From positions 2,361,789 to 2,425,788 of the forward strand of contig JAJEKV010000074.1 in NCBI GenBank assembly GCA_021234155.1: a DNA stretch of 64,000 bases, given 5' to 3'. Under the pieces are notes generated by a model. It saw only the letters and a program-made list of their open reading frames with translations, ran no database searches and was not told the DNA's origin. Position 1 is the stretch's first letter; each line of letters begins with the position of its first letter. This DNA is from Isoetes taiwanensis. Lineage: Eukaryota; Streptophyta; Lycopodiopsida; Isoetales; Isoetaceae. Positions 2,312 through 49,578 of the stretch are shown piece by piece. The translations under genes were made by a program, and so were the position numbers.

Positions 2312-5050
2312 TTTTTTTTTTTTTTTGAAGCTTTTTAATCATTAATTATGGAAATTAAGTACAAAAAAGGTGATGTGCATGACTAGAGATATCAGTTACA
2401 TCAACCTAAAATTTTGTAGGCTTAATAGAAAACCTATAAATAGTCTACAAGCAAGGGTAGAACAATCCAGTAGCATAAAAGCCTATAAAAATATATTCAA
2501 TGGTCATGTATTTCAGAGACCATTGAAAATATAAGGTCTTAAAACCAGACTTCAAGGCAGAAATCTTCAGAGCGTCAAATTCCAGCCGAGTTGTTGTTGC
2601 TGATAGAAAACTTTAGGACATCCTCTCTGATTAAGCCGAATCCCTTTGCAGAGATACTAAGAGCCAAACATCTGCCAAGAAACTGAGCATAAAAGCAGAT
2701 AGGGAATTAGAAGTTATAGGATTCAATGTAGTGGAAATGATCTCGAAACTAAGGGTTTAGGATTGGAATGAAATGCTTCCTCCAATCCACAATTTCAATC
2801 GACCTGTTTGAATTGCATGTGGAATATAAGTGGATCATAGTGCCATAGCAATCTGCTCTCTCCATGTGGTATAATAGCACTCTCTATAAATTCAAATTGT
2901 TTATCTGTCATATCATTGTTGTTTGCATTCATAAACCACCACAGGACATACATAAGCTGTGTTTCTCTGCAAAATTCTTTTTCCCAAGCTACTTCCCTTT
3001 CAAGGATTTCGTGTAGCTCTTGCATGAGCTTCCCCTTGACATGCCCTTCCCAAAAACTGTAATCACATTCAGACTGCACCTGATTCTGTATCTGACTTTG
3101 AGTTGATAGTGGTTGACCTATATACTTGGAGGCTTCTATGTCATCGAATTGTAGATCCAGCTTATGTTTGCAATTCCATAGATAATCTAGCATCAACAGA
3201 ATCATTGTTAGTAAGCTCATCATGACAATTAAGTTTAAAGAAATTATGAAAGCCAAAAAAATGTTCAAGTGTATCCCACTGTTGATCAAATTGAGCACCT
3301 TCATATTTGTTTTTGTGAGCAGTGGCTGCAAGTTCAAGATCATAAATAATCTGCAACTTTATCCAAAACACAACAAGATTGTGACCACCATACAAACATC
3401 TATTTCGTTCTTCCAAATATTCCATAATGCCGTGAAACAAATGGTATTTAAGAAAGCACTATTCTAGAATGGGACTCGCAAGAAACCAACAAACCGCCCG
3501 ACTACCAGAGAACTTCCTTACAAACTAGGATCGAGGACGAAGGTCACAGGACGAGGCCAACGGCCGGTAAAGGATAGCATGAAAGATACGCCAAATTGGC
3601 TAACCCAGGCAGGAAGAAGCCCCTCCCCTGCCTGGAAACAATTCAAAGAGAATAAGGTACTGCTGAGAGAAGAGGAAGCGCCGATGAGACGTGGATGCAG
3701 AAACGCGCCTGAAATAGCGAACTCCCAACCAAGACGGGCATGCGCCGCCCGCATGCATGCATGACATGCATGCTCGTCCCATTCTAGAATGGCGATCCGA
3801 TGTCTCGGATCGATGCGATTATTCATGATGATGAAATCAATAATTCTGATAGACCTCTGAATATTAAAATGCACTTCAAACCAGTTCCAGAAAGTGTTTA
3901 ATTTAGGGCAGAGAAAGATATGCTCCATGGATTCCTGTTCACTGCAATTAAGAGGACAAAGAGGAATGCTAAATTATTTGACGGAATATCATTTATTTTA
4001 GCCTGGTGTCTGCTAATTGTTTGCAAGTTTGGGACACTCTTATTAGCAATCAACCTATTAAATAAGTAACTTTTGAGGAAGAATAACTTTTGGTGTCTTC
4101 TTCTTCTTCTTCCAAACATTTTTTAATAACTTAGCTTCTTCCTGTTTAGAGATATTCCAATAAATGGATGCTTTAGATGGCAAATTCGAATTATTCAAGA
4201 AATCATGTATATTTGAGACTTTATAGATTTTTTTGTCTCTGAATGACCAGTCAATTCCACAAGTACCGTTACCATCCAAATTAGTAGTAACCACCTTGCC
4301 AATAATATGCTTAAATAGTAGCCTATTGGAATTTGTACCCTTAATTTTAGTCCTGAGCCTAGTCCATGATATCCATCTTCCATTTGACCATAGATCTCCA
4401 AGCTTATAAACATTATGTCAAACCATTTCTTATAATTTTGGGGTGATTTATGGCTAAAGGGATATTATCTCTTCTAGAAAGATGAGGATTCCAAAAAATA
4501 TTCATGTCATGATGGCCATGATTTAAATTATTATGAGAAAAAGCTTTAGAGACTTTATTCCATGCAATAATTAAATTCCTCATCAGAGGGGAGTATTAGT
4601 AGCAGGCTTAATATCGTAAAAGAAGAAGAAGGCAGCTGATGGGCAATTGAAGGATGACCTTTAATAATGCTTTTGTTTAGCCAATATTGAAAAAACTCAG
4701 TGGCAGGATTAATTTCCCTGCCAGAGCATAGGCTTGAAGAAGCAAATTTTACATCCAAGACCACCTATACATTTCTTTATGGTAATAGATCCCCAATTGA
4801 TCATATGATTCTTACCCCATATAAAATTTCTAATAATTCTCTCAATTTGCTGATATATGCATTTAGAGGCAAGAGTTTTGGTGGATAAGAATTAACTGGA
4901 TCAGAAGATCGCCTTGCTGGGATGGAGGAAGTCGCATAAAATTGTGCAAGAAAATGAGAGATTCTGTGTTTAGGGCTTTTGGAATATTCGACATTTTTTT
5001 GGCCATTTTCTAGAATAAAGAGCAGGTGAAAGCAACAAATCAAGGTTCAG
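2312..5050 (-). mobile_element. decayed LINE (zf-RVT type), LINE-B, split by copy A
   Basis: A second minus-strand LINE remnant in several frames. From its 5' side it shows the RT connection region (PLNAYISKLRELLEILYGV near 4810-4880), then frames with KFASSSLCSGREINPATEF (about 4700-4760). A zf-RVT-like segment follows (MEHIFLCPKLNTFWNWFEV, about 3870-3928). After a 357-bp insertion (copy A) the same protein resumes with a W-x-x-W-K-x-R-N motif (MEYLEERNRCLYGGHNLV) near 3370-3440 and runs on, with a frameshift near 3200, to a stop at 2795. A run of 15 T at 2312-2326 is the likely poly(A) tail. The element is inactive. Its value is that it gives the empty-site sequence for copy A. Confidence 0.7.
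3461..3820 (+). mobile_element. hairpin-ended TIR element, copy A (short type)
   Basis: Non-coding element of about 357 bp. Its left end is ATTCTAGAATGGGAC followed by TCGCA. Its right end carries the inverted form (ATGCTCGTCCCATTCTAGAA), then a hairpin at 3793-3812 (CGATCCGATGTCTCGGATCG, 8-bp stem, 4-nt loop) and ATGCG. The body shares a tail of about 190 bp with copies B-E and its internal part with the short copies B and E. It interrupts LINE-B: removing it restores a readable LINE frame (MNN|SAF). ATT occurs at both edges, so a 3-bp duplication is possible but cannot be separated from the element end. No PBS, poly(A) or ORF of its own is present. Confidence 0.75.
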
Positions 5051-7416
5051 GGGAAAGAATAGAATAGAATAGACAAGCAGAGGGAGAATAAACTAATTAA
5101 AAGTCGACTAAAAATGGAGGGAAATCAAATCAATGACATTAATTTGGAGAAATGAACCTAGAGAATTAAAACTGCCTCTGATAGCCAAATTAGCAGCCCA
5201 CTCCATTCAATTCACCTGGAAATAATTCATTGTACACCTTAACAAGGATTTTTGCATCTGAATTATGGCTAAGCACCTGAAAGATCCATGCGACTGCAAT
5301 ATTTTTGTTACCAACAAATTCTTCTAACCAGACTTCTACTATCTCGGTTTCAAATTCCACACAATTGGGAACAAACGTGTATTCTTGATGGAATAAAGAC
5401 ACTGGAAAAATTTAATTGATAATCAAATTTATTCAAAGATCAAAGCAATTTCCTTGTTAAAAACCATAGGTGAATCTTGAATTTTCTTCACAATCGTAAA
5501 TATTTTGCACTCCATTCAATTCTGGCTATGTCGAGAAAGCAATGAGAGCTAGCCTTCTACAAGGCTAGCAGGATTTTCCCTCGAGAATTCCTTCAGTTCC
5601 TACCAGAGAAGGGCGTTCTCCCCTGTGTTTTTGCCAAGAAAGAGTGAGTAACTGAAATAACAGAATTTTCAAGAAAAATGGCACTCATTTTTAGGCGCAC
5701 CCCTACTGCATACCGCCCACCAGCATATAACTTATGTTTCAGAAAGATTTGATGATGAAATGTTGATATACTTATGTTAATGGCTCTATTGGATATATAA
5801 AACATGTATACGATGCTTTGTTCATACACAAACTCCAGCAAGGCTTCTCTAAGTTACACAGTTCTAGTAGGAGGCCACAATTGCCTTGAAAACTGAAGCA
5901 ACAATGTGTTCAAAAGCTTGTTCTTGTGGATCTCGCCTACAAGTTCGTTGGAAACATTGAATTGACTTCATTTTATACTTTGAATTGTCATTGCCACTGC
6001 CACTAAATATTAAAGCTGCTAATTTATTGTTAAAAATTAATTGAGTCTGAGAACCTCATTTCTACAAGGTTAGACGGAATGTTGGCTTAGCAAATTGTGT
6101 TGTATATAAAGGTAGCGACCATTTTTTTCACAAAGTCTAATGAAATTTCGCCATTGTTATTGTTGAAAGGTAAGTCCAAAGTTGTAACATGGGACCAATT
6201 TTCCAATTCAATTCAATTCAATTCTCTTATAGCTTGATGAGCCATTCACGAACATGATCTGTTAACTTCTTGTTACGAGGAAACACAAATGAGATGTGTT
6301 TGGCAAGGGCCTCTGTCTTATTGTCATTTAGATTCAATTCCTGAATAAATTCAATTCCTGAAATTAATCATATCGTCTAGTAAGGAAATATTTTTTTTTG
6401 TGCTTGGAGAGGGAAAATATTAGAAATGCTTATAGTGAGCGCTAGTGTCCGCCTTTTGTCACTTAGCAACAGAGGTGTGACATTTTTCCAACGTGAAGCA
6501 TTTCTTTGGAAGTCATCAAGGAATCCTGAAACACTACATCTTGACTTATCTAGCAAGTTGGCAATGCCTTTAAAAGAAGATGATATGTAGAGCCGTAGAT
6601 TCACAAACATGATCGTGTTCTTGAACTCTAGATTGGCAATGCCTGCATCGGTGCTTTTATTGGCTCCCCATTATGGGTCAATTCCAATGGGGTATTAGAC
6701 TTGTGGACTTGGCTTCTATTTTGCAAGTCGAATAACCAAACCAAGGTCTTAGACTCGTAGATTCGCTTGAGTATTGTGTAAGTCAAATACCCCAAAGAAT
6801 ATTTTACAAGTCAAATACGTCAAGTAGAATTGCGAAAGAAGTGCCCACGCAAGGGAGCTCAAAACCCAACAGACTAGCCATCTGCGGTAAGCACTACAAA
6901 AAAAATGACTGTTGTTATGGTATTCGACTTATAAAATAGACAAGCAGGGTCGGCTCCCAGTTAGTGGGAATCCAACCCCGAAAGGGGCCAATATTTCGCC
7001 CGGACTAGCATAGGTATAATCCTCAATGTACAATTGCGATATCCTTCCCATGTCTTATGATGGTAAAGTTGTTTGCTTAGTTTACATTGTTTTGGATAAT
7101 GTTTTTTATAACGTTAGGTGTTGATTCATTTCTGCCCTTCGAAATGATGAGAGCTCAAACCTCTAAATAAAATGCTTTTGGAACATGTAAATTTATGTAA
7201 ATTTGCAATAATGTTATAGCCCGCAAAATAAATTGGTGCTAGCTTGTTAAAAGACTGAATTCTCAATGATCGCATGATGTTGCTGCATAAATTCAGTTAA
7301 AAGATGGGACAAAAAAAAACATTATTCAAAAAAAAAACATTAACTTTGTTTTCAGCCAGTACATCCAGGGGTTAATATGCATCGTCTAGTGATGACAGGT
7401 GCAATTTGCCATTGCA
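5051..7416. other. non-coding stretch with a small foldback
   Basis: No supported gene; the open frames here are short and look random. A foldback lies at about 6688-6794: TGGGGTATTAGACTTGT on the left pairs with a GTGTAAGTCAAATACCCCA-type sequence on the right. Further GTATTYGACTT-like motifs extend to about 6920. This may be a MITE, but no target duplication was recognised. Confidence 0.35.
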
Positions 7417-9519
7417 CTACTGCTTACATGGCGCCAATGGGCGGCCACATAAACCAGGGTTTCCCTCAAAGCTAGAAGCATCAAGACCCCGATTTGCTAA
7501 TGCCATTGGAATTTGACCTGATAACTTGTTGTTGGATAAATTAAGAAAACGTAAATGCATATCTGCAAGACCAGCAGGAATGCCACCACTCAGTAAATTG
7601 TTTTGCAGATAAAGTGCTCCAAGCTTGGCATTCTTAACAAACTCTGGCGGAATTTTACCACTGATGTTGTTGAAAGATAGGTCCAATATTGGCCATGAGG
7701 AAGTTCTACCAATGTTAAAATCCTGCATTTGTAGCGTAGCAAGCCACTGTGGAATGCCACCCCTTAGTCTGCAGTGACTAAGTGTAAGATTTCCCAACCT
7801 TGGGAGTGTAGCAAGGCCCTGTATCTTCTGAAAGCTGAGATTATTGTTGTCCAGGTCTAATTGTTGCAGATCAGTGAAGTTGCTCATATGATCTGGTAAC
7901 CCCGTAATTTTGTTATTGTTCATTCTAACTTCCACTAGAGAAAATGGAAGAACTCCATCCTTAATATCACCTTCTAACATGTTAGAGGCAAAGAAAAGGC
8001 GTTGAAGGCCTTTGAGACTCTTGAGGCCTCCCAATTTGTCTAATGTTATGGAGTTACTCTCCAGATAAAGTATTCCCAACTTGTGCAAACTACTCAGATT
8101 AGTTTCAAACCCAGTTATGCTGTTCTGGCTTAGCTCTAAAATATAGATACTTGAAGGAAATATGTTTGGGATATTCCCAGTGAGACCACAATTGGAAAGC
8201 ACTAGGTAAAATAAAGATGGAAGTGTTGCTACCCCTGCAATGCTATCAAAACTGAGCTTATTACTGTAGAGTGAGAGATATGACAGGCTAGTAAAATGGC
8301 TAATGTTTGATGGCAGATGAGTAATTTGATTATTGCCCAAGCTAATGGACCAGAGATTAGGCAGCCCAGATGACGGAATTGTGCCAGTCAATTTCAAATT
8401 TCCAGAAAGATCAAGCTGAGTAAGGTTGTGCAAAGACCCTAATGCTTCAGGAATATCACCACTCAAATGATTATCTGAAAGAGCTAAGTATTGGAGATTA
8501 GAAAGCTTACCCAAGGATGCAGGTATGGATCCAGAGAGGCTTGTGTTTGTAATCCTAAGTTGTAATAGACTATAGAGGCTGCCAATGGTCTCAGGGAGAT
8601 TTCCAGATATGAATGTCGAGGATATATCCAAAAACTTTAGACTGGAGAGGCCACCAATGGTGCTTGGAATGTTGCCAGATATGCATGTGTTGTCTAGATC
8701 CAAATATTGTAGGTTCGACAAACGGCCAACTGATGAAGGTATTGATCCCCAGATCTTAGTATACTGTAAGTCGATCTGTTGCAGGTTATACAGATTTCCT
8801 AGCCATCCAATTGATCCACCAAGTTGGGCATTGTACTGGAGGTGAAGTTCCTCTAAGGCCTGCAAGTTACCGAATGATGCAGGAATTGTGCCACGCAGAT
8901 TGCAATTTCCCAAGTCCAACTTCTTAAGCTTCTTGAGATTGCCAAATGAAACAGGAATTTCTCCCTCAATCAAACGATTATTTGGTAGGTACAAAGAACG
9001 GAGCTCTGACAGACCACCAAGGAATGAAGCAAAACCCCCTTGGAGCTGGGATCCAGAGATCCGGAGGTCCTCCAACTTGAACAAATGACCAAGACTTTCA
9101 GGAATGCTGCCATTGATATTATATGCAGCTGTAAAATCTAGCACACGAAGTTCAGACAGAAATCCTAAAGAGCTTGGAAGCGGACCTGATACTCCAGTGG
9201 ACGCCATATTCAAAATTTTTAGATGGGATAGCCTGCCTATGGAATGGGACAGGGTTCCTAATCCAAGCCAGTTCTGCCCAAAGTCTAAACTTACAATGTG
9301 ACCACTGTTTTCACAGGTTACACCAAACCATCTGCAACAATTTGATGTATTCCAGGTTTGAAAGGCTCCATAAGGGTCAGGAAAACGTGCCTTCATCTCC
9401 AGAAGAGCATTTCTTTCGGAGAGAAAACAGTGTGGGTAAGTGCGTGCCTCCAAGCCAACAACAAGCAAGAAAAATGCAAGATAGATACAGAGCAGGGAGC
9501 GGTTGTAAATCGATGCCAT
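7417..9519 (-). CDS. secreted leucine-rich-repeat protein (LRR-RLP-like, no TM or kinase)
   Basis: A single open frame of 700 residues. It opens with a hydrophobic signal peptide (about residues 1-25, LLCIYLAFFLLVVGLEA). An LRR N-terminal cap follows (about 31-68) with the paired-cysteine signature CCRWFGVTC. About two dozen plant-type LRRs (LxxLxxLxLxxNxLSGxIP) fill roughly residues 75-670. The protein ends in NPGLCGRPLAPCKQ, the cap seen before the membrane segment of plant LRR receptors, but a TAG stop follows at once. There is therefore no transmembrane helix or kinase, and the product is probably apoplastic. Such proteins act in ligand binding or defence and development signalling; no specific ligand can be inferred. 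The ATG at 9519 is chosen because the signal peptide starts there. A consensus splice donor lies upstream at 9609-9610. Confidence 0.88.
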   Translation of the reverse strand: MASIYNRSLLCIYLAFFLLVVGLEARTYPHCFLSERNALLEMKARFPDPYGAFQTWNTSNCCRWFGVTCENSGHIVSLDFGQNWLGLGTLSHSIGRLSHLKILNMASTGVSGPLPSSLGFLSELRVLDFTAAYNINGSIPESLGHLFKLEDLRISGSQLQGGFASFLGGLSELRSLYLPNNRLIEGEIPVSFGNLKKLKKLDLGNCNLRGTIPASFGNLQALEELHLQYNAQLGGSIGWLGNLYNLQQIDLQYTKIWGSIPSSVGRLSNLQYLDLDNTCISGNIPSTIGGLSSLKFLDISSTFISGNLPETIGSLYSLLQLRITNTSLSGSIPASLGKLSNLQYLALSDNHLSGDIPEALGSLHNLTQLDLSGNLKLTGTIPSSGLPNLWSISLGNNQITHLPSNISHFTSLSYLSLYSNKLSFDSIAGVATLPSLFYLVLSNCGLTGNIPNIFPSSIYILELSQNSITGFETNLSSLHKLGILYLESNSITLDKLGGLKSLKGLQRLFFASNMLEGDIKDGVLPFSLVEVRMNNNKITGLPDHMSNFTDLQQLDLDNNNLSFQKIQGLATLPRLGNLTLSHCRLRGGIPQWLATLQMQDFNIGRTSSWPILDLSFNNISGKIPPEFVKNAKLGALYLQNNLLSGGIPAGLADMHLRFLNLSNNKLSGQIPMALANRGLDASSFEGNPGLCGRPLAPCKQ

Positions 9520-9720
9520 TTTGATGCATAAAGGATTGAAAGATGTTAATGTGGAAGAGAAGAAGGGGGTTAAAATATGGAGGAAAGGAGGAAAGAGCAG
9601 GCATACTTACCTTGGCTATGGCGGCAGCCGACGGACGCCCTTGGAGCCCTTCTTCTGTTTGCATCGTTTTTGAGGTTTTGGCCGCCTTCAAAAACCTTAG
9701 GTACAAACAATACTACGAAA
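9520..9720 (-). promoter_or_regulatory. 5' leader of the LRR gene with a consensus splice donor
   Basis: Read on the minus strand, this segment contains CCAAG|GTAAGTATGCC with the donor GT at 9609-9610, then a pyrimidine-rich stretch leading to the ATG at 9519. No AG acceptor is seen between the donor and that ATG. The donor may therefore be unused, or a spliced form may start in a further-upstream exon and skip the signal-peptide codons. The open frame continues upstream to about 9706 in another reading frame. Confidence 0.3.
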
Positions 9721-11489
9721 AATGCCCACTAGAAAATTCTATCTAAACAAGTGGGTTGTCCTGAAATGAGAAAATGAAAAAATAGAGTTGTATTTTTTAA
9801 TAGAGCTGTAATCTATGTTTTCAAAGTCAATAAATTGGACGTGTAATTGTTTAGTGAAGGATTGACATCGTTAAAAAGGTGTTGCAACTTTTGAAATATT
9901 TGAAAGTTGGTCAAGAATTGATGACTGTGTTAGAAGAAATGCATAACAAAAGCATAGTTTCAGATGGAATCAAATGAACTAAATGTTGCGATAAGCCCTT
10001 ATTAAAGTTGGAATGCATACCATATATCGTTACATGCGATTTCTTATATATTTGAAATGGATTTCACACGTCGCACGCACAATATAATCCCTCAAAAAAT
10101 GAATGTTGTTAAAGCTTTAAATAGATAATATCGAAGTTAAAATACAACTACTAAATCGATATACATTAGAAGTCACATGTGCAACAACTGTGCATTCACA
10201 AACAATGGTGTGGAAGTATGTGCAAGTGTATATTCCGAGCTAAAACACTTGAAGTTCACCTCCATCATGGTGTTTGCAAATGTGTAGCTTCGGCACGTAG
10301 ATGGGGTGCACCCTGGACTACCATAGTCATCGGATTCGTCGATCCTACGACCCAGATCGTATGTTTAAATTGTTAGCACCTCGCTTATGATTGAGGCGCC
10401 TATGATGAAATATGAAATACGATTTCGCCCAAGGTTTTGAGGGAATATCGAACCTCTATACGACTTTGCCTAAGATTTTAGAATATGAAATACGGGGGCT
10501 CGAACCTCTACCAAAATAACTTAATGTCCTAATAATATTACTTTAACCAATATACCCAGAGAGCTAATGTCGTTAATTTTTACCTTGAATCTATATTTCT
10601 TTTTATAACAATTAGGGATATATGGTCTATGGTTTCAGGAATTGTTATTTTTTACATCCAACATATTTCCTTTAGAATGAGCCAAAAATTTATATTATAA
10701 ATGTATTTCATTTGCAGTCTAAAGAAAACTAATAATGGATGCCCGGCATTGCCGGTCTTTCACATGTAGTCTTAAATACGTTAACCATACATTGAATGGA
10801 AGCAGATGCCAATAGAAAATCATATGAACTGCGGCATTGCCAAGGAGTATGAGCATAAAATATATGTGTAATATTCCTTTCTAACATTCCTAAGTTCCAT
10901 TATGCATGCTCAACAATATATAATTAGATTTGAGGTAAGTAGAAAGCATAGAATTTGTAGGTGGTCATAGCTAAAAAGTGTGCACGGTAGCAATTCAAGG
11001 GCAACATTATTGCAATGAAGGACCTTCTCTATTATCCAACCACCTGATGGAGTGCCAAATAATGTCGTCATGTTGGAATGATGACTAGAAGCTTAATGAT
11101 ATGCATAGCCAAAAGTCCTTAAAACATCATGTGAAGCTATGATGATAAGTGTATGCCCATTTGATTGCATTGTAGAAGTGTGCATTCATGAAGTGCGTAC
11201 ATGTGAGTCACTGACTTGGTTGTAAAGGTAGATGACACGTGTTACTATCAGGCTGGAAAAGTATGTGAATGCATGTCTCGTTATGTCCAAAGGATGATTT
11301 TTGTAGTATTGAACTACAATTTGGAATTGGTAATTATTATTAATTGACTACATGACATTTACCAAATTGAGGTAGTCATATCATATTTTGTTGAGATGCA
11401 TGATTGCAGTGGAAGTTCTCATACTAGAAACAATGTTTGTTGATAATGTCGATAGAAAAGTGCAAATTCCATTAGTCTCTCTCTCCCCT
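9721..11489. other. intergenic stretch with one SINE-like unit
   Basis: No gene was supported. A minus-strand copy of the SINE-like repeat found at 26748-26980 lies at about 10481-10565. Its reversed B-box (GGGGGCTCGAACC) is at 10495-10507 and the matching GGTTAAA region is near 10545-10555. Confidence 0.4.
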
Positions 11490-16200: not shown

Positions 16201-16567
16201 AGAATCCCATCGATCCGAGACATCGGATCGCCATTCTTGAATGGGACGAGCATGCATGTTTTGCATGCATGCGGGCGGCGCATGCCCGTTCTAGTTGGGA
16301 GTTCGCTATTTTAGGCGCGTTTCTGCTTCGACTTCTCATCGGCGCTTCCTCTTCTCTCTCAGCAGTACCTTATTCTCTTTAAATTGTTTCCAGGCAGGGG
16401 AGGGGCTTCTTCCTGCCTGGTTTGGCCAATTGGCGTTTTTTTCATCTTTGTCCGTTTCTCGCCTTTAGCCTTCATCCTGCGGACCTTCGCCCTCGATCCT
16501 AGTTTGTTAAGGAAGTCCTTTGGTATTCGGGCGGTTTGTTGGTTTTGCGCGAGTCCCATTCTAGAAT
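16201..16567 (-). mobile_element. hairpin-ended TIR element, copy B (short type)
   Basis: Reverse-oriented short copy. On the plus strand it starts AGAATCCCAT, then the hairpin CGATCCGAGACATCGGATCG, then a slightly mutated CCATTCTTGAATGG. It ends GCGAGTCCCATTCTAGAAT. The body matches copies A and E, including a region with several CATGC palindromes and the shared GCGCC-GATGAG-type tail. It abuts copy C in the same orientation, sharing the AGAAT junction. Confidence 0.75.
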
Positions 16568-17225
16568 CCCATCGATCCGAGACATCGGATCGCCATTCTT
16601 GAATGGGACGAGCATGCATGTTTTGCATGCATGCGGGCGGCGCATGCCCGTTCTAGTTGGGAGTTCGCTATTTTAGGCGCAAGCGTTTCGCCGACTTCTC
16701 ATCGGCGCTTCCCTCTTCTCTCAGAAGTACCTTATTCTCTTTGAACCGACCCTCCCCCTTCTTTGTTATTGTATTTTTATCGCAAGTGGCACGCTACAGA
16801 ATCAGCCCTCCGCCACGGGAGGTTTGGTTTGTCTTGTTGTTTTGTTGGTGATGTGCGTGTAGGTTAGCGCGGCGGCATCTGTTTCGACTTTTCCATTCGT
16901 GGGTTTTGGGAGCGATTTTTATGCCTTACGTTTGTCCAAGCCCCTTGCCGAAGGCTTATCACTAGGGTTTTTCCTCGAAAACCCGAAAGGGCGGGGTTTT
17001 TTAATCCCGGTGATAAGCTTTCGGCAGGTACACTAGCCCAGTCTCTATTAGCATTGTATTTTGTTGGGGTCCAAATGATATAATTGGATTTTCCCTTTAT
17101 TTTTTATGGGTAGTTCGCATGTGTGCGGCTACCCACTATCCACCATTGTAGAAAATCTGCTGAGATGAATGAGAAGCAAGTCTAACGGGCGGTTTGTTGG
17201 TTTCATGCGAGTCCCATTCTAGAAT
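16563..17225 (-). mobile_element. hairpin-ended TIR element, copy C (long type)
   Basis: Long copy with the same terminal hairpin and ends as copy B but a different middle. It contains a 16-nt inverted repeat, GCCGAAGGCTTATCAC (16947-16962) with GTGATAAGCTTTCGGC (17010-17025), enclosing a conserved loop rich in AACCCCGCCC and the inner stem GGGTTTTC/GAAAACCC. A second hairpin, TGGGTAG/CTACCCA (17107-17113 with 17129-17135), has an inner CGCA/TGCG stem. No coding capacity is seen. Order and orientation (long then short) match the D+E pair. Confidence 0.75.
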
Positions 17226-17442: not shown

Positions 17443-17713
17443 GTATGCCTATCTGTGTATTCTGGGAAGGGACTCGCGAGAGACACAAAACCGGCCGATA
17501 GGCTTGTCATTCATCACAGCAGCAGTATACAATGTTTTGAAGAATAGAGAGGGGTAGCCGACCATAGGAACAATATCGGACTACCCCGTAAAAAGAAATG
17601 TGCACAGGCAATATAGAAGGGTAATGGTGACAACTTCTCACCGGGATAAAAAAAACCCCGCCCTTTCGGGTTTTCGAGGAAAACCCTAATGAGAAATGGT
17701 CGCCAACAACCTT

Positions 17714-17879
17714 GAATGTGTTGCCTGGAAAACCGAAGGAGATGGATTGATGGCGAACAGAAATATAGCAGGACCCCAGAAGACGGCAGAATCCCCGAAT
17801 GTGTTGCCCGGAGAGCCGAAAAGGTGGGTTGATGGCGAACACAAATATAGCAGGACCCCAGAAGACCGCGGAAACCTGC
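17714..17879 (+). repeat. two 83-bp tandem repeats inside copy F
   Basis: Two adjacent units start GAATGTGTTGCCTGG and GAATGTGTTGCCCGG (17714 and 17797) and share ATATAGCAGGACCCCAGAAG. They follow directly on the large stem-loop. The open frames across them are chance. Confidence 0.7.
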
Positions 17880-17966
17880 AGCAACTCAAATGAACCCAAA
17901 AAATACCCGTGAATGGTTAGAAAAACTACCATGCATGGCAGGGACAAGGCAAGCCGCACAATAAAA

Positions 17967-18234
17967 TGTTGGAATTTATGATGTTTGTTGTCCATTCTAT
18001 TTTTGGAGATGGCCGTTGGAGCTCCACCGACATAGAGCCCTTTATATGAAGGACTCTTAGATCACTGGATATGCATCTTCTTTCTCTGTTTCCTTGTGTG
18101 CTTCTTCTCATGTGAGCGCTGGATCTTTCACTATGGGCGTGGTCCCGAGCCCTATTCGGGACATGACGATGATACATTGGATTCTGCGTTTGATACACTC
18201 ATTGTAAAGACTGAGGAGCTCAGTATTTTCAACA
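17967..18234 (+). repeat. 5' LTR of the gene-capturing element
   Basis: This LTR is 268 bp long with TGTTG...CAACA ends. It matches the 3' LTR with only a few substitutions (for example GGAATTT versus GAAATTT at the start and GCGTTTGA versus GTGTTTGA near the end), which implies a fairly recent insertion. Confidence 0.9.
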
Positions 18235-18248
18235 GGTTATGGGCCCAC
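18235..18248 (+). promoter_or_regulatory. primer-binding site, half-tRNA initiator-Met type
   Basis: GGTTATGGGCCCAC is the reverse complement of the conserved anticodon stem-loop of plant initiator tRNA-Met (GTGGGCCCATAACC). Drosophila copia and yeast Ty5 are known to prime from an internally cleaved initiator tRNA at this region. The usual plant PBS TGGTATCAGAGC is absent here. Confidence 0.75.
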
Positions 18249-18479
18249 GCATGCTCAAACTCGCTTAAGTCGCTTTGTAGTTTGAGTTCTTGTGCTTTTA
18301 TTTTTTCATGCTGAGGAAGCTTCATGATATTTATCTTGTAGCCATTCTCTCAGGCTTAAAATTGTCACAATTGCTGATGCAAAGACGCACTGTTTAAGAA
18401 CTTGTTTCAAAAGTTTTACCTCTGTTGGAGGAGTTCGCTTTTGATCGTCACCTCTTTTTTAAGGTATCATCCATTGCAG

Positions 18480-18960
18480 TTGACAGATGCCCAGGAAGTG
18501 GAAGACGATGAGGTTGATTCAGGTTCTCATAGAGAAGGAGAAGAAAGAGAGATCAATACTGGCTTCAAGAAGCTGTTGGTGAAGCAGGGCGAGGGCTGGA
18601 TAGTCATGAGAGCGTTGATGAGGTCATAACTCATTATAGTGAAACACCTCTTGATGCAACGAGGTTTGATTCAAGCCGCAAATGTGGACTAACCATTTAT
18701 TTTAAGCTCGGTCAAGGCCTGGTTATAAAAGGATGGGATTATGGAATTGCAACAATGGAGAAACAGGAAAATGAAGTGTTCATCATACCTCTTGAACTTG
18801 CTTTGTGGAGTCTTGTGCCCCTTCAACAATCCCTCCAAATGCTTCTTTGAAGTTTGATGTTGAGGACGTTTTCAATAATGGTGCCTGTGAAGATAAAAGT
18901 GTGAAGGCCAAAAGTTGCAGATGAAGTTGCAGTTAAGTTCTCAGCAAAATTGGTGTACGA
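18480..18960 (+). pseudogene. captured FKBP-type peptidyl-prolyl isomerase fragment
   Basis: The segment reads as an FKBP domain of the multidomain plant FKBP62/ROF type. An acidic leader is followed by KKLLVKQGEGW, a one-base loss near 18598, then VDEVITHYSETPLDATRFDS, LGQGLVIKGWDYGIATM, a second one-base loss near 18805, and finally TIPPNASLKFDVE. A partial second domain follows (VADEVAVKFSAKLVYDPSK). FKBP active-site positions are visible (HY, FD, VIKGW). The stretch runs without introns where plant FKBP62 genes normally have several, so it was probably captured as spliced RNA. The frameshifts mean no working isomerase is made. It lies inside the LTR element at 17967-21207. Confidence 0.85.
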
Positions 18961-19254
18961 CCCTTCAAAATGGAATTGAGTTCTATGTGAAGAACATATT
19001 AAAAGGGGGGGAGAGAGAAGATTGCCTGCAGCAGAAGTCAGAAATGCTCACAAAATGGATGGTTTAAAATCTTTGAAATGTTTTGACAGGATGAAATCTT
19101 GCTACAGGCTATTAGCAAAGAACGTGGTCTGCACGCCATGTTTTTTTGCATATCGTAGGATTTGATCAAGGTACACTATTAGTGATGGATTAGTCAGCTC
19201 TAGAATGTTCTTTTTCCTTTTGGCATATGGAAGTAGGAGTTTCCTGCAGATAAT

Positions 19255-19640
19255 GTGACGTTTGTTAGTAGCCTAAAAGCCCGTGGGTAAAAGCATTGGA
19301 GAGTCCGGCAGGGGCGAAAGGAGTTTGAAAGGGATTTAATTATTGATAATGGTTTGATACAAATGAATGTCAGATGTGGCGCAATTACAGAAGCTTGTAA
19401 TCTCTTTGTTAGGCTCGCAGTCCGAAATTCAACGTCATGGACTTCCCTACTAGCAGGATATGCTGAGCATGGTTCTCAACAGAAATTGCATAGATGTTTT
19501 GAGCAGATGAAACTTGAAGGCATGATTCCAGATATTGCAACATTTTTTTTATATGGTTTGAAAGCTTGTTGCAGCAAATATGCATTTTTAGGTGCAGATC
19601 TCTTGGAGAAGATGAGGATGATATTAGTCAGCCATTAGTC
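19255..19640 (+). pseudogene. captured PPR protein fragment
   Basis: VTFVSSLKARG, then after a stop and decay GLIQMNVRCGAITEACNLF, RNSTSWTSLLAGYAEHG and CFEQMKLEGMIPDIATF. These are the successive motifs of PLS-type pentatricopeptide repeats, a family of organelle RNA-binding proteins. The longest clean frame is 19354-19638. It lies inside the LTR element downstream of the FKBP piece and in the same orientation. A third readable piece at about 19880-20045 (GDITLGKLLNSLKFGNAD) follows; I do not recognise it. Confidence 0.75.
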
Positions 19641-20284
19641 TAGTCCATGATCAAAGATGTAGTGACGTCAATGGTGTAGAGATCTTGCAGCATATATAAG
19701 GAGAATCAAAGGTGTTCTTGATTCATTGCTTGTGTTTTGAATGCCGATTGGGAAATACACGTTGCTCAGTTTGGGGAAGCTCAAAAAAATTTTGGCCCAA
19801 AAACATGTTGTAGCTAGAAAATCCAATATTGACACGGACGGATATGTCAATGATCATGAAGGCAAGTCCGAGCCCATGCCGATAGTGATTCTTCTACTCA
19901 TGGTGATGACAATGATGGCATGGACGGTGATATTACTCTGGGGAAGCTGCTTAACAGCTTGAAATTTGGGAATGCAGACAGCAGGAAGAAAAGAATATCC
20001 CTTGAAATAAATGATGATGAATCACTTGGAATAATGCCATCAAGATGAGCACCGATGTTTTCAGCTTATGCCTCACAAAAGCATTATGCTCCTGTGAATA
20101 GAGATACAATGTGCATGAAGCACATTGATTGGTGGATATACAACAGAGATTTTGTGGCTTTGAGAGGGCAGATCATGTACAGATATATCTGTACATCTGA
20201 TTGAAGATATCTAGATGATTGAAGATATCTAGATGATTGAAGATCAATGCTAATTAGTATGTGACTACGTGATACCTTTTTGGT

Positions 20285-20580
20285 GGCAGTGCCAGGAACG
20301 GCCAGGGGCCAAGCCTGGACTCCTTTTGTTGAATGTTTTTCTAGCATGTGGCTAGAGGATCATTCTTGTACCTGCAGGAGACTTTTTGTTGGCAGTGCCA
20401 GGAACGGCCAGGGGCCAAGCCTGGACTCCTTTTGTTGAATGTTTTTCTAGCATGTGGCTAGAGGATCATTCTTGTACCTGCAGGAGATTTTTTTTTTTTG
20501 GTGGCGGTCCCCAGAACGGCGTAGGGGACCAAGCCCGACTCCTTTTGTTGAATGTTTTTCTAGCATGTGGCTAGAGCATC
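20285..20580 (+). repeat. three tandem units of about 106-112 bp inside the LTR element
   Basis: Units begin at about 20285, 20391 and 20503, each containing a GGCAGTGCCAGGAACGG-like block and ending TTTTCTAGCATGTGGCTAGA. The third is more diverged. A smaller triplicated GATATCTAGATGATTGAA motif precedes them at about 20203-20245. Confidence 0.75.
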
Positions 20581-20939
20581 ATACTTTTTGTATCCGGATC
20601 ATGGTGACAAATTGCTAAGAACGGTAGTGGGGGCAATGTGGTTCCTTATCCATTGCCAAGCTTGACCGCATGTATCTTGTCCGTGCTGAAGATGAAGACC
20701 GGAGGATATTTTTATGATGACAATCATTTCTTTTGTAGGGAGCCTACATTTGGGCAGCCGTTGGAGCCAAATCAGCCTGATGCGAAGGGAGCCTTCTTTA
20801 ATTTTCAGCAACCCTTTAATTTTCAGCATCCCTTTAAGTGGGGGTGTTGGAATTATGATAATTGCACGGGTGTTCAGAGTTAAATCAGCATGATTCAAAG
20901 GGAGCCTTCATTGTATTTCGGCATCCCTTTGAGTGGGGG

Positions 20940-21207
20940 TGTTGAAATTTATGATGTTTGTTGTCCATTCTATTTTTGGAGATGGCCGTTGGAGCTCCAC
21001 CGACATAGAGCCCTTTATATGAAGGACTCTTAGATCACTGGATATGCATCTTCTTTCTCTGTTTCCTTGTGTGATTCTTCTCATGTGAGCGCTGGATCTT
21101 TCACTATGGGCGTGGTCCCGAGCCCTATTCGGGACATGACGATGATACATTGGATTCTGTGTTTGATACACTCATTGTAAAGACTGAGGAGCTCAGTATT
21201 TTCAACA
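20940..21207 (+). repeat. 3' LTR of the gene-capturing element
   Basis: Same length (268 bp) and ends as the 5' LTR at 17967-18234; followed directly by the TAAAA target duplication. Confidence 0.9.
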
Positions 21208-21248
21208 TAAAAAACCTGCAAAGAAGAGCAAATTAGAAACATAAAAAG

Positions 21249-21480
21249 CAGCACCCAAAAAGGTGGAGGAGCATCACCCAGCGGGTGGAAAACAATTATG
21301 CGTCACCCTCAAGGTGGAAAGAAATAGCATCACCCTCAAGGTGGAAATAAATAGCATCACTCTCAAGATGGAAATAAATAGCGTCACCCTCAAGGTGAAA
21401 ATAAATAGCATCACCCTCAAGGTGGAAATAAATAGCATCACCTGAAAAGTGGAGAAAGCATCACCCAACGGGTGGAAAAT
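21249..21480 (+). repeat. 29-bp minisatellite with hairpin units
   Basis: About eight units of the type AAATAGCATCACCCTCAAGG plus TGGAAAT. Each unit can fold as CACC-CTCAA-GGTG. Edge units read CACCC-AGC-GGGTG and CACCC-AAC-GGGTG, so the stem pairing is kept although its sequence changes. It belongs to the right half of copy F, just past the LTR element. The repetitive open frame over it is not a real gene. Confidence 0.75.
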
Positions 21481-22039
21481 AACATATGAAAAAAATGACA
21501 TGATAGTGATGCAAAAACATAATTATAGTAAATGCAAAGTGAACAACAACAAAAGTGCAAGGCCTAAAAACACAAATGAAACAGACGCGTCCCCACTGAG
21601 CAGGGCGGGAAGGGAGGGAAGCTACGAGAAGGAAGGAAGCTGCTGTGAGAAGACGCCGATAACCGAGCCAAAACGGAAATGGCCTAATATAGGCGCTCGT
21701 CCCTTCCCAGAATGGCGATCCGATGGCTCGGATCGATGGGACTGCTTTGTTTTGGCAAACAAACTGATGAAAAGACGAATGCACACAACTCCTTTATCTT
21801 ACTGCACTAAAACAAGTCCTAGGCATCAAGTTGACTTTCTGCCAAAAAATGAAACCCAGGTTTCTCAAACACTGCCCACATGTGGCTAGCACCAGAAAAG
21901 AGAATAATGATATTGGAGCAGTCAAATGCCCAGGAATGATTAGGTTCTGAATTTATAACATGTCAAACTCCTCCTGTATATTTGTAGTGCAACGATTGTA
22001 TCTTCTGTCGAGAAATGATAAAACCTTTAGAGCTTCTTT

Positions 22040-40248: not shown

Positions 40249-40253
40249 AGGAA

Positions 40254-43511: not shown

Positions 43512-44674
43512 GGCCCTTTTTCCACGGTTGGCTTAAAATACGGCTGTCTTATAATTATAAGACAGCATTTGAGATGCCACGTCATTTTTGTGACATGTCT
43601 TAGAAAAATTAGTTTTCCATGGCTTCATTATAAGAGGTGTTTTATAATATAAGACATGTCGCATAAATTTTCTTTTCCACTACTCAATCTCTCTGTTTGC
43701 ATATTCATCAGAAATAGGCACAATATTTTGCAATTTCACAATTCTTGATGCGTGATAGCTGTTGCAGAGCAAGCATCAAATACATCTTTGTTTATCATAG
43801 CTTCTATCCTTGTCTGTAATGCCTGTTTCAGCAAATATCTTATGACCTACCTTAAATTCAGAATAGCTGTGAGACACATTGGACAGCTTAAGCGTGATAG
43901 ACAATCCAAAACTTCTGAGCGTCTGAAGCAAATCCTCGGCGAAAGAGCGCCCCATTCTGGCATCTGGCATAGGCCCAAGAGTCCGATCACCGAAAATTTA
44001 CCATGAGATCAAATGAGAAACGACACCTTTCTTATGCCCAACAGAAAATTTTCGATTGAAGTTTTCGGAAAATCAATCTCATTTTGTTCAAGCCCAACAG
44101 AAAATCTGAACTACGCAATCCTGATCCTGACCTAAAATAATGTTTTCCGAAAAATGGTTTTTATTGTTTGCCCTTTTTAACTCGAAATTAAACTTTGTGA
44201 ATCACGCAAAACCGAGCATTGTAATACACGGAACTCTTCAAAATCGACTGCTATTTTGGCCGGCTGCCTCAAATTTGACCTGCACCATTGTGTCTTGCTT
44301 CAATTTCAACCACAGCCAAATCGACCTGCAACAAATCAACTTGCAGCAAATTCCACCTGCGATTCCAGTCTAGCCAGCAATTCCATTCTAGTACAGCGAT
44401 TCTAGTCCGGCGATTCCAGTAGGATGCTTCTATTCCTCTTTTTTTTTGCGACATGCTAAAATTTCGGCCTAGAACGGCTGGGATTGGACGTTTCTGATGT
44501 CTTATTTTCTGGCGGGGGATTTCCCCCGGAAGAAAATGGGACTCCAAAGTTGTACGGCATGCATATAAGACATGTCGTAAAACTTTGAGTGGAAAAACTA
44601 ATGTGTCTTATATTCCTACGTGGCCCAATCACATCTTAATAAATTTAAGTCTGGAGTGTCGTGGAAAAAGGGCC
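43512..44674. mobile_element. non-autonomous PIF/Harbinger-like TIR element, 1.16 kb
   Basis: A 15-bp perfect terminal inverted repeat GGCCCTTTTTCCACG (43512-43526) matches CGTGGAAAAAGGGCC (44660-44674). The 3-bp target duplication TAA flanks it (43509-43511 and 44675-44677). TAA duplications and GGSCC-type ends are typical of the PIF/Harbinger superfamily. Subterminal TTAGTTTTCC/GGAAAAACTAA and ATAAGACATGTC motifs are also inverted. No transposase is present. The interior holds a short GCGATTCCAGT-type minisatellite at about 44356-44425 and a possible gene fragment on the minus strand at 43776-43970. Confidence 0.85.
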
Positions 44675-44941
44675 TAAGGTCTATATATACATACACTAGA
44701 AATAACAGACCAAAAAGTAGGCAAGGTGGTTGTTTTATATGCAATGTGGGCATAAGGAATAGGTTGTTTGGCAATGGTATTAAATTGGCGGGGTAAAAGA
44801 ATAAAAGGGCGGGCTAACACGTCGACGAGACCTTTTCTGCGACAGCGATGGGGAGCCTCTTCTTCGTAAGTGCTTTGGTGGTTAGGGCAACCATTCCGGC
44901 GAAGCTGCCCCGAACAGCTCCAAAAATGCGTCTAGATCTTC

Positions 44942-46348
44942 ATGCCGCTTCTTCGATTTCTTCTTCTTATACCGGTTCTTCCTTCTTTCCTTCTCTTTCT
45001 CCAATATGCAAAATTTCGTAAATCTGTAGCATCCATGGCTTCTTTTCCTCACAATGTTGATCTTCCCCCCCGCAAGAAGCCTCGCTTCGTTGATCTTGAA
45101 CTTAGATTAGGCCCCCCCGGCAGTTACTACTCCGATTCTGTTGAAGATGATGAAGAATTGGACGAATTTGAAGAAGTTTCTGATGCTCACGTCGATTTAG
45201 AGGCTGATCCTTGCCTGGCGGGGGAGAATTTATGGAAATATTTGTCTCAGGATGTTGTGGATATGATTCTTGCAAGGATTTCTCAGGAAGAATTGGCCAG
45301 ACTTCGCTGTGTGTCGAAGGATTGGAATTCTTCTGTCCTTTCCGCTGGAATTTCCGCGTTTCGTGGAGAATTGGGGATTTCTGGGCCAGATTGGATCGTC
45401 GTCTTGTTTGACAGTACTCCTAAGCCTAATCAGATGGTGGATTCCGCTTCTTTTGATTATTATAATTGGCTCATAGCATTTACGCCGGAATCAGGCTCAA
45501 ATTCTCGCTTTCGGACCTTTGATTTGGATTTTCTTCCCTCTTGTTCAGGCAAAAAGTTTGCAGAGCAGTTATGTAGCTTTAAGCTGGGGAATTATCGGTT
45601 TAAATCTTCTGCCGGAGGTCTTCTTTGTCTGCAGAATAAGAAGCTGGAACTTGTGATATGTAATCCCTTTTCCAGGGCATATAAAATTTTGCCAAGAAGA
45701 AACATTCAAAGCTTATCTTCAACTGCCATGTTTTACAACAATGCGAGCAAGAATTACACGATCTTTACTTGGAAGGCGCAATTTGTGAGGCTAGTGACGT
45801 ACGACTCTTGCTCAGAAACATCCAAGGTTATAGAAACCAACACGGAAGAGCACAATACGCTCTTAAATTCAAAGAAAATTGTAGCAGTATCATGCACAGG
45901 GTATGTAATTTTTGTTGCTTCTTACAGAGACAGGCGACCCGGAAAGCTTTGCATTTACAATGTGGCAAAATTAAAATGGGACAAATGCATCATAGATTGC
46001 CCAGTTTCAGAGATCGAAGGTGTGGTAAACTGCCAAGAGAGGCTATTTCTGCTGGCAAAAGGAAACGCCAGAAGCAGAAGAACCGTTTGGGAATTGGATC
46101 TGGCAAGCAAAAAGTGGATCGAACACAAAACATTTTGCTGTCCAGGACAAAATGTAAAATGTGCAGCAATTAGGAACCATATCTACATTTTTAGCAGGAT
46201 GGCTAGCAATCTGATTGTTTATGATATTCTGAGCCATACTTGGGTTACAGAGGCATGGCCAGATTATACAGGACCATGTTCTTCCTCCAGGCTTGATCAT
46301 TCACTTGGGGCATCAGTCTTAAGCTGTGAAATTCATTGTTTGCCTTAG
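44942..46348 (+). CDS. F-box protein (F-box plus beta-propeller-like C-terminal region)
   Basis: An intron-less frame of 468 residues, or 437 if translation starts at the second ATG (45035). The latter has the better context (ATCCATGGCT) and begins MASFPHNVDLPPRKKPR, a basic nuclear-signal-like stretch, so I prefer it. An acidic linker is followed by the F-box at about residues 96-140 (LSQDVVDMILARISQEELAR, then LRCVSKDWNSSVLSAG). This box binds SKP1 in SCF ubiquitin ligases. The remaining 320 residues show repeated WELDLASKKW- and VYDILSHTW-type strands, as in plant F-box/kelch-like substrate-binding domains. The substrate is unknown. The gene starts 268 bp after the Harbinger-like element. 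Confidence 0.85.
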   Translation: MPLLRFLLLIPVLPSFLLFLQYAKFRKSVASMASFPHNVDLPPRKKPRFVDLELRLGPPGSYYSDSVEDDEELDEFEEVSDAHVDLEADPCLAGENLWKYLSQDVVDMILARISQEELARLRCVSKDWNSSVLSAGISAFRGELGISGPDWIVVLFDSTPKPNQMVDSASFDYYNWLIAFTPESGSNSRFRTFDLDFLPSCSGKKFAEQLCSFKLGNYRFKSSAGGLLCLQNKKLELVICNPFSRAYKILPRRNIQSLSSTAMFYNNASKNYTIFTWKAQFVRLVTYDSCSETSKVIETNTEEHNTLLNSKKIVAVSCTGYVIFVASYRDRRPGKLCIYNVAKLKWDKCIIDCPVSEIEGVVNCQERLFLLAKGNARSRRTVWELDLASKKWIEHKTFCCPGQNVKCAAIRNHIYIFSRMASNLIVYDILSHTWVTEAWPDYTGPCSSSRLDHSLGASVLSCEIHCLP

Positions 46349-47214
46349 CAATCCGCCATAGCCACCAGTTTCGGATAAGCTTGATCCAATTTGACTGTTG
46401 CTGCTATGGATTTGGGGCTAATTTGGTTTGTAATTCAAAAGAATATGTTGTAAACTTTGAGAAACTTGTAAAAGATTTGGATTTGGATTCTTTGCTTACA
46501 TGAATTGCCACGTTTAGTCCAACTCAGCAGGATCTGGGGGATCTTGGAAAATGCATTTGACCCACAAAAGGCATTCCAAATTTCTAATGTGCGAGTATCA
46601 TTCCATGCCCATCATTTCTAGTTGGTTTCGATAAACCATAATAGTCACATTGGCATCTATTGTAGGGGCGCAAGGGCATCTTCATCTTGAGAGCATAATC
46701 TAATCATATTGGCATTTATCCCTAGGTCTGACGGGCATCTTGATCTAGAACGTGAAAACGTGCACTCATAGAAGTTCCTAGCTCTCCAAGGATTCTTCAA
46801 CATGAAAAAGACAATTACTTAGTTTGTCTTTTCATCAGAAGATGTTACAAAATTGTCCTAATTTGCACTCACATCCCATCTTTATCTATAAAATCACGCC
46901 AATGGTCAAGGTTTGTACTCATGTCTCGTTCACTGCACATTCTTCTTCAAGCTCTTCCATGGCTGGGCTCATATGAAATCAATCTACATCACTCTCTTCA
47001 ATACAAAATAATTAAATTAAAAAAAAAATTAACTCTAAATTATATAAATGGTCGATTGCTCATTGCACATCCTTTTCGACCTCTCCCATGGCTGGGCTCA
47101 TAGAAAATTGCTCTATTTTTCTAAATCATATTAATGGTCGAGATTCGCATTCACAACCTTAGTCGTGGGGAGTTTTCTACCCCCCTTCACAACAACATTG
47201 GAGAGACAAACTCA
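46349..47214. other. 3' flank of the F-box gene, with imperfect repeats
   Basis: Probable 3' UTR to about 46500. Imperfect repeats of CTTCCATGGCTGGGCTCATA and GCACAT..CTT occur at 46899-46975 and 47048-47105. No further gene was seen. Confidence 0.4.
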
Positions 47215-47331
47215 CACAACATGGAAACTGGGACGCTGATTCCGCCTCCGGAATGGAAAGCGGCATGATGATTCCGCTCAGCAGGTAAGGAGCAGGTAAA
47301 TTTGAAGCTGCGACCCAGTTACCATGTTGTG
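47215..47331. repeat. small GC-rich foldback (candidate MITE)
   Basis: CACAACATGG (47215-47224) and CCATGTTGTG (47322-47331) are perfect inverted repeats, and pairing extends inward with a few mismatches (AACTGGGACGC against GCGACCCAGTT). A third copy of AACTGGGTCGCTGATTCC follows at about 47342-47359. No clear target duplication. Confidence 0.5.
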
Positions 47332-48580
47332 GCGGCCTGGAACTGGGTCGCTGATTCCAGGACCCGCTCCCGCCGGTCGCGGGACTCCCTGGAATCCGCT
47401 TCCCAGATTCCATGCCGCCATACAATATAGCGCGTGGAACAACTTCCTTGTTGTAGTTGCATTAATTTAGCACTTGCTAGATATTTTTCTTATTTAGTAT
47501 TTTTCTTTTTTCATGCTTGTTAAGATCTTCGTTGTCAATGTCGCCACTATTGTACCATGTATGTTGTTGTTAGTGTGGTTTTTATTATGATATTTTGACA
47601 TGTTAGTGGGCACACGTTAGTTATCTTTTTGGACTAGTAGAAATGCCAAGTGGATGCATTCGTATACCATAAGGTACCTATGTCACATACGAATTAGTTA
47701 AAATTGCAATGGTTTCTTACTTTTCAAAAGATGACAAACTTTATTCATCAATCCAAATATTATGTCAAGATACAATGCAGAGATAGGACTACAACCCCAG
47801 TGGACAAATACAACTGAGCACAACCGCCTGTTTATGCATAACAATGAATTTGAAGGTAGATTTCCAAAACCAATGTCTTTTTCTATTGATCAAGAGAAGC
47901 ACAATTATGAGCCATAACAATTTTATCCTATGCCCACTGAAGAACAAGTTCATCTATAGTGTCAACACCTCGAATTTTTGAGTGGTGCAAAATGTACATT
48001 TTCTACAACTTTGAAGTAAGGTTTGTATATGATTTTTGTAGATGTATTTGTTTAAAGCTATTGTATATTTGGTCTGAGCTATCTGGTTTCCTTTCTTTTG
48101 TTTATGGTTGCTTTTCTTTGGTTTTTTTAGTTGTGGTTGTTTATTGAAATTTTTTGTTTTGGTGTGTTATGGGACGGGCAACTTCATGAATAATATATAA
48201 ACTATTAGATATAGCATAAATCTCAGGACACATCAAAACAAAAATTTTCAATTTTTATTTTCAATACAATTTTGTTCCTTTTTTTTTCCAAACTCAAAAA
48301 CACAATATCTCCATTTTTTTTTTCACAAAATGGAATTATGGCTATCCACCCTGAAAACGAAGTGCCTAGGCTCCTCCGAAATACAAATCATTGCCATAGC
48401 TAGGAGCTCCAACTCCGGCGCCCTTTTTCTGAGACTGCTGCAAACAACCACCCCAAATGCATGAGGAAGAGATAGATCGTGAACTTTAGCAAAAAAATGT
48501 AGCATGTAGCATATCAATGTTTGTCGATATAAAGGCTTTCCTTTTATTAGCTCCAACGTCCACCTTTATATATACATTCT
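47332..48580. other. intergenic stretch, no gene seen
   Basis: AT-rich; only short open frames without recognisable domains. Confidence 0.4.
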
Positions 48581-49230
48581 ATTCTAGAATGGGACTCGCA
48601 TGAAACCAACAAACCAATAGATAGGCTTCTCATTCATCTCATCAGAGTTTCTACAATGGTGGATAGTGGGTAGCCGCACACATGCGAACTACCCACGAAA
48701 AATAAAGGGAAATCCAATTATATCATTTGGACCCCAAAAAATACAATGCTAACAGATGTTTGGTTGGTGTACCTGCCGAAAGCTTATCACCGGGATTAAA
48801 AAACCCCGCCCTTTTGGGTTTTCGAGGAAGAACCCTAGTGATAAACCTTCGGCAAGGGGCTTAGACAAACGCAAGGCAGAGAAATCGCTCCCAAAAACCC
48901 ACGAATGGAGAAGTCGAAACAGATGTCGCTCGCCAACCTATACCTGCACATCACCAACACCAAAAAAACAAAACAAAACAAACCTCCCAGAGTGGAGGGG
49001 CTGATTACGCGCGTGCCACGCGACAAATATAATAAACAAAGAAGGGGGGGGGAGGGTGGGTTCAAAGAGAAATAGGTACTGCTGAGAGAGAAGAGGAAGC
49101 GCCGATGAGACGTTGATGCAGAAATGCGCCTAAAATAGCGAACTCCCAACCATAACGGGCATGCGCGGCCCGCATGCATGCTCGTCCCATTCTAGAATGG
49201 CGATCCGATGTCTCGGATCGATGGGATTCT
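48581..49230 (+). mobile_element. hairpin-ended TIR element, copy D (long type)
   Basis: The left end is ATTCTAGAATGGGACTCGCA. The right end is the inverted form plus the hairpin CGATCCGATGTCTCGGATCG and ATGGGATTCT. Internally it has the GTGGGTAG/CTACCCAC hairpin at about 48664-48694. The 16-nt stem GCCGAAAGCTTATCAC (48775-48790) pairs with GTGATAAACCTTCGGC (48838-48853) around the conserved AACCCCGCCC loop. It is the counterpart of copy C. It is joined directly to copy E, sharing ATTCT. Confidence 0.78.
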
Positions 49231-49578
49231 AGAATGGAACTCGCATGAAACCAACAAACCACCCGAATACCAAAGGACTTCCTTACAAACTAGGATCGAG
49301 GACGAAGGTCACAGGATGAAGGCTAAAGGCCGGAAAAGGACAGCATGAAAGAAACGCCAAATTGGCCAAACCAAGCAGGAAGAAGCCCCTCCCCTGCCTG
49401 GAAAACAATTCAAAGAGAAATAGGTACTGCTGAGAGAGAAGAGGAAGTGCCGATGAGACGTTGATGCAGAAATGCGCCTAAAATAGCGAACTCCCAACCA
49501 TAACGGGCATGCGCCGCCCGCATGCATGCTCATCCCATTCTAGAATGGCGATCCGATGTCTCGGATCGATGGGATTCT
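49226..49578 (+). mobile_element. hairpin-ended TIR element, copy E (short type)
   Basis: Short copy joined head-to-tail to copy D. It shares about 35 bp of the left end and about 190 bp of the right end with copy D. Between them it has the short-type middle (AACTAGGATCGAGGACGAAG, GAAGAAGCCCCTCCCCTGCC) seen in copies A and B. It ends GATGGGATTCT, so ATTCT flanks the D+E pair on both sides. Confidence 0.78.

Follow-up and report, generated by a model that had tools for sequence, protein, structure and literature searches.

The window, a stretch of 64,000 nucleotides from the genome of Isoetes taiwanensis, contains six copies of a repeat that begins with TTCTAG and ends with GGGA once its ends are aligned together with their flanks. 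The six left and six right ends noticed in an earlier sequence-only reading are all present: the left 18-mer TTCTAGAATGGGACTCGC, allowing up to three mismatches, has 11 matches in the window, consisting of six left ends and five inverse copies at right ends (shuffled sequences give 0.01), and the right 26-mer CGATCCGATGTCTCGGATCGATGGGA has six matches (shuffled sequences give 0). The copy limits of that reading were nearly correct, being off by a few bases from the aligned ends; the leading A of ATTCTAG, which it had counted as part of the element, belongs to the target DNA. Copy A (3462..3818, plus strand; 357 bp), short by alignment, is a solo element flanked by A on the left and T on the right. 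On the minus strand, the long copy C (16567..17224) and the short copy B (16205..16566) are the upstream and downstream halves of a dimer, C-B; on the plus strand, the long copy D (48582..49226) and the short copy E (49227..49574) are the upstream and downstream halves of a second dimer, D-E; B, C and D were typed by alignment. The two halves of each dimer meet head to tail at the junction GGGA/TTCTAG. Copy F (17460..21741, plus strand) represents a second subfamily with the ends TTCTGGGAAGGGAC...GTCCCTTCCCAGAA. Since C-B and D-E are joined head to tail, the window holds four insertions (A, C-B, D-E and F) rather than six separate ones.

Copy F had been read as a long-type member; it reaches a total of approximately 4.3 kb only because an LTR retroelement outside the family has inserted within it (17967..21207, plus strand; 3,241 bp). 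This nested element is bounded by LTRs of 268 bp at 17967-18234 and 20940-21207, identical at 265 of 268 positions, and by the target site duplication (TSD) TAAAA at 17962-17966 and 21208-21212; after its subtraction, F measures 1,036 bp and contains internal tandem repeats. Another F-type element, 5.8 kb in length, lies elsewhere in the genome (C113:541732-547540). Gene capture by F was considered and rejected, since the two gene fragments found there, FKBP (E value 2e-11) and PPR (5e-8), sit between the LTRs of the nested retroelement. As noted in the earlier reading, LTRs and primer sites are absent from the family itself, but F does contain the nested LTR retroelement. For annotators, F is a warning that "long copies" of this kind can be nested retroelements.

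The six repeats are part of a large family of small transposons without proteins, with about 3,000 copies. In the 1.66-Gb genome, exact matches to the left end that directly follow an A number at least 2,955 (the reversed control gave 0), and exact matches to the right end at least 1,807; with approximately 3,000 left-end copies genome-wide, the ends are real. Each of the 30 loci that were compared lies at a separate genomic site, and the absence of protein and poly(A) from the family, read originally from the window, was borne out. The end architecture can be followed in copy D (plus strand): the left arm of an asymmetric inverted repeat (TTCTAGAATGGGAC) lies at the 5' terminus (48582..48595), its right arm (GTCCCATTCTAGAA) lies 29 nt inside the 3' terminus (49184..49197), and a hairpin, CGATCCGA-TGTC-TCGGATCG (49201..49220), is followed by ATGGGA and the terminus. 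As single-stranded DNA, the 3' end folds into an 8-bp stem with a 4-nt loop (-12 kcal/mol and z-score -3.6 for D; z-score -2.4 for F). The extra hairpin proposed for the right end does fold beyond the internal inverted repeat, and the terminus lies 6 nt further out. No 5' hairpin was found, as folding of the first 59 nt is not more stable than that of shuffled sequences; since HINE elements have been described without a required 5' stem-loop, its absence counts against a strict Helitron2 assignment, but not against the HINE type.

The two ends of the element evolve together. When unselected left and right ends were paired into 35 elements, the arm types agreed in all 35 (30 A/A, 5 F/F). The A and F subfamilies differ at three bases in the left arm and at the three partner bases in the right arm; all three differences are compensated, with complementarity restored each time. 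The 5' arm is palindromic in one subfamily (TTCTAGAA), whereas in F it has lost its palindromic symmetry, which implies that the feature preserved is the correspondence of the left end to the right one. Asymmetric inverted repeats with an internal 3' arm, as first recognized in the window, are thus corroborated by the 35 elements and by co-variation between subfamilies, and the co-varying ends define the DNA that is read by the putative Rep protein.

Alignment of the copies with their flanks also revealed a preference for A^T insertion sites. The base preceding the element is A in all 23 sites examined and in 97.8% of exact left ends genome-wide, against 68 ends preceded by a different base; the right flank is T in 27 of 30 sites and, across the genome, in 94 of the first 100 matches listed (using a search pattern that excluded G), and a pyrimidine, T or C, occupies the second position on the right at 27 of 30 sites. 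The joined flanks of one locus (L030) have at least 40 gapless matches among repeat copies, over all 280 bp at 98-100% identity, representing empty sites; empty sites were likewise found for L070 and L071, and the joined flanks of L016 have a contiguous relative at 83%. Another copy (L021) is inserted within a Copia-like polyprotein, whose reading frame is open only with an exact join. The gapless empty sites and the open frame indicate that no target sequence was duplicated or lost; insertion is exact between A and T, without duplication or deletion. With TT as the first two bases of the element and T or C as the next base of the target, insertion at A^T (TTCTAG...GGGA) is indistinguishable from insertion at AT^T/C (TCTAG...GGGAT). 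The TT target of the Helentron type is not supported by the observed A^T, subject to this one-base ambiguity, and the T^T/C target of Helitron2 would correspond to the second reading. Small size, lack of coding capacity and high copy number would also be compatible with a cut-and-paste MITE, a SINE or a TRIM-like element; yet the empty sites lack a TSD, the inverted repeats are not both terminal (the 3' arm is internal), a poly(A) tail is missing, and there are no direct repeats at the two ends, the sole LTRs being those of the element nested in F. An origin of this kind is therefore highly improbable; an Rfam search of the element returned no match at gathering scores.

The combination of asymmetric inverted repeats, a 3' hairpin, an unduplicated target and no protein supports a non-autonomous family of Helitron2/Helentron type; we consider it likely that this protein-less family was moved by a rolling-circle (HUH/RepHel) mechanism and is structurally Helitron2/Helentron-like (HLE2), and most likely that it works like, and is derived from, an HLE2-type element. 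The original proposal of a non-autonomous Helentron/Helitron2 derivative agrees with the build of the element (asymmetric and co-varying ends, 3' hairpin, no TSD), but the class itself is not supported: the observed target is A^T instead of TT, subject to the one-base ambiguity, the search yielded no RepHel bearing such ends, OTU was represented by one gene only, and no GSPH-type Rep was recovered. RepHel genes are abundant in the genome (150 scored of 1,813 candidates) and fall into five groups among those read, and among this part of the RepHel population none has matching ends. TTCTAG...GGGA ends were absent downstream of group 1 and group 2 RepHels and from the 20-kb neighborhoods of four RepHels (C224, C1018, C1066 and C1107, two of them partly consisting of N); when RepHel neighborhoods were scanned for asymmetric inverted repeats of any sequence, unrelated local repeats alone were recovered. 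The motif QxRGSPHxH of Helentron-type Rep proteins had 0 matches, although the pattern makes this a weak test. DUF6570 occurs at 24 low-copy places, none of which coincides with the listed RepHels, and the right end had no match in viral contigs.

As an alternative, the family could consist of non-autonomous canonical Helitrons (Helitron1) with drifted ends that are mobilized by the canonical RepHels of this genome. The A^T target, the absence of a TSD and the 3' hairpin are shared with canonical Helitrons, and canonical RepHels are abundant, those of groups 2, 3, 4 and 5 having the canonical hairpin and CTAG-T end downstream (none was found downstream of group 1). In contrast to canonical Helitrons with their 5'-TC and CTRR-3' motifs, the Isoetes elements do not start with 5'-TC where the conserved A^T boundary lies, nor do they terminate in CTRR, in thousands of copies of the form TTCTAG...GATGGGA; the hairpin stands 6 nt from the terminus; and the left and right ends are joined by an inverted repeat that is maintained by compensatory change and absent from canonical Helitrons. 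A drifted Helitron1 family is consequently improbable, if less so than a MITE, SINE or TRIM. If the HLE2-like assignment is true, the A^T target together with HLE2-type ends would form a bridge between two classes normally treated as separate.

The main new point is the invariable head-to-tail arrangement of neighboring elements, with a highly uniform long-then-short order and junction. Among 100 unselected left ends, 23 have a neighbor on the same strand within 1.3 kb, and 0 have an opposed one. The upstream member is long (615-709 bp) in 16 of 18 A-type pairs, and the long-then-short order was found in each of the seven unselected pairs for which the right ends of both members are known, and in nearly every locus retrieved. 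Genome-wide, 551 exact junctions were counted; 484 junctions run into the short type with at most three mismatches over 63 bp, and approximately 100 or more of these are identical over this stretch. When all 21 loci are included, sequence variants in one half are associated with those in the other (0 of 3,000 permutations), but this association no longer exceeds chance after removal of the three most diverged dimers, or of seven. Mean divergence from the consensus is 2.1% for the short and 4.6% for the long halves, at loci that had been picked for their likeness to E.

The uniform order and junction suggest that the long+short heterodimer probably spreads as a single transposition unit; since the half-to-half association holds overall and is lost without the diverged loci, movement as a unit is likely, but not proven. 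Alternatively, the pairs could have formed repeatedly, by insertion of a short copy into the A^T site that arises where a long copy ends on its 3' side, without transposition of the unit. The element end GGGA followed by T does recreate the A^T target, and the loss of the half-to-half association after removal of the diverged dimers speaks for such stepwise pairing; on the other hand, the lack of any opposed neighbor beside 23 head-to-tail ones, the consistent long-then-short order, the large set of junction stretches identical over 63 bp, and the association of variants over all loci argue against it, and we regard repeated stepwise pairing as rather unlikely, albeit less remote than a drifted Helitron1.

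The long type and copy F share an internal stem structure (48774..48854 in D, plus strand), with compensatory changes between the two subfamilies. Across seven sequences, six of 15 stem pairs are changed on both sides (shuffle mean 1.4; 0 of 500 shuffles as high), and slid registers of the stem yield only 0 or 1 such double-sided pairs; most of the changes derive from a single comparison, the long type against F, and therefore represent few independent events. Solo short elements exist without this internal stem. A role of the stem in the long unit as an origin of second-strand synthesis is a speculation. As a tentative synthesis that we rate as possible, this plant rolling-circle lineage would have adopted a fixed non-autonomous heterodimer as its main unit, enclosing both a second origin and an intact terminator, with an A^T target, HLE2-type ends, and a long half whose conserved strand structure could serve as a second-strand (single-strand) origin.

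For the transposition of such a unit, we infer rolling-circle chemistry, a partner enzyme and read-through of a terminator. A Rep protein would bind both arms of the inverted repeat and nick at the 5' end before TTCTAG; a helicase would then displace one strand as far as the 3' hairpin and ATGGGA, which mark the end, and this strand, probably circularized, would enter the target between A and T without duplication. About one insertion in three consists of a long and a short copy joined head to tail; here the machinery would start at the left end of the long copy, run past the terminator where the two copies meet, and stop at the right end of the short copy, so that both would spread together as one element. 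Provided that the pair does move as a unit, every one of the hundreds of dimers documents a natural case in which a Rep went past an intact terminator. Termination could then be tested by sequence comparison, and so could end-bypass, the step that underlies the capture of genes by Helitrons.

The kind of element is known from other systems; what is unusual is its pairing, together with its insertion site. Asymmetric subterminal inverted repeats, a 3' palindrome and an unmodified target define HINE/Helentron elements (PMC4067079), and asymmetric inverted repeats, a 3' palindrome and an unmodified target likewise mark Helitron2 (PMC5148889). The non-autonomous Helentrons HINE/DINE-1 share with the Isoetes family subterminal inverted repeats of 12-15 bp that are often palindromic and of which the 3' one is internal, a stem-loop near the 3' end, an unmodified target, high copy number and, in some copies, internal tandem repeats, as in F (PMC4067079). 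They differ in their TT dinucleotide target, compared to A^T(T/C) here, and in variable T runs at the 3' end instead of GATGGGA; moreover, the Isoetes family resides in a land plant, as its PPR, LRR and F-box genes also indicate, where our search gave no Helentron RepHel or endonuclease and only a single OTU gene. The Helitron2 elements FoHeli1/2 of Fusarium oxysporum also have asymmetric inverted repeats, with the 3' repeat 20-50 bp inside the terminus, and no TSD (PMC5148889). They insert between TNAT and T (PMC5148889); this insertion after AT and before T fits the Isoetes family if the one-base ambiguity is read as AT^T, with the element starting in TC. In contrast to the Isoetes family, FoHeli1/2 encode RepHel and end in ATTTT. 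Composite FoHelis formed by self-insertion have been described (PMC5148889), a further similarity; these composites contain duplicated short 5' ends, unlike the fixed unit of two elements with its hundreds of copies, of which we found no description in the literature searched, with its incomplete coverage. Finally, tandem Helitron arrays, known to us through the citations in PMC5148889 for rice, maize and centromeric Helitrons, resemble the Isoetes dimers as rolling-circle elements joined head to tail; as far as these citations extend, they differ from the Isoetes unit, which is a dispersed heterodimer of two types in fixed order.

The long elements and F, the member of the second subfamily, share an internal stem structure (window 48774-48854 in the long element D and 17625-17705 in F); its sequence is unlike between the subfamilies, and the structure is retained through compensatory changes. 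F is split by an LTR retroelement (window 17967-21207) in which no gag or pol was recognisable; fragments of FKBP-type isomerase and PPR genes lie between the LTRs and are candidates for retroelement-borne gene capture. Elsewhere in the assembly, F-type elements with matching ends reach 5.8 kb (C113:541732-547540) and 2.3 kb (C82:111351-113688), and represent either nested insertions or bigger family members.

The family insertions in the window are all located outside two long open frames, which read as an LRR receptor-like protein (window 7417-9606, minus strand) and an F-box protein (window 44936-46348, plus strand). The repeat at the flanks of insertion locus L030, and also of L070 and L071, is very young, with an internal period of 157 bp and at least 40 copies of 98-100% identity.

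A group-3-type RepHel gene (C1083:2428612-2429124) occurs 2.8 kb past the window's right edge. DUF6570 is found alongside Rep domains; in the whole assembly, DUF6570 proteins are low-copy, and their 24 places (for example, C1035:4738985-4739338 and C908:21166044-21166391), none overlapping the listed RepHel or helicase places, possibly mark a second type of Helitron-like element. Within the family itself, the right part of F carries a tandem repeat (window 21260-21470; period ~28 bp, unit AGCATCACCCTCAAGGTGGAAATAAAT) that resembles in kind the internal repeats in non-autonomous Helentrons (HINE elements).
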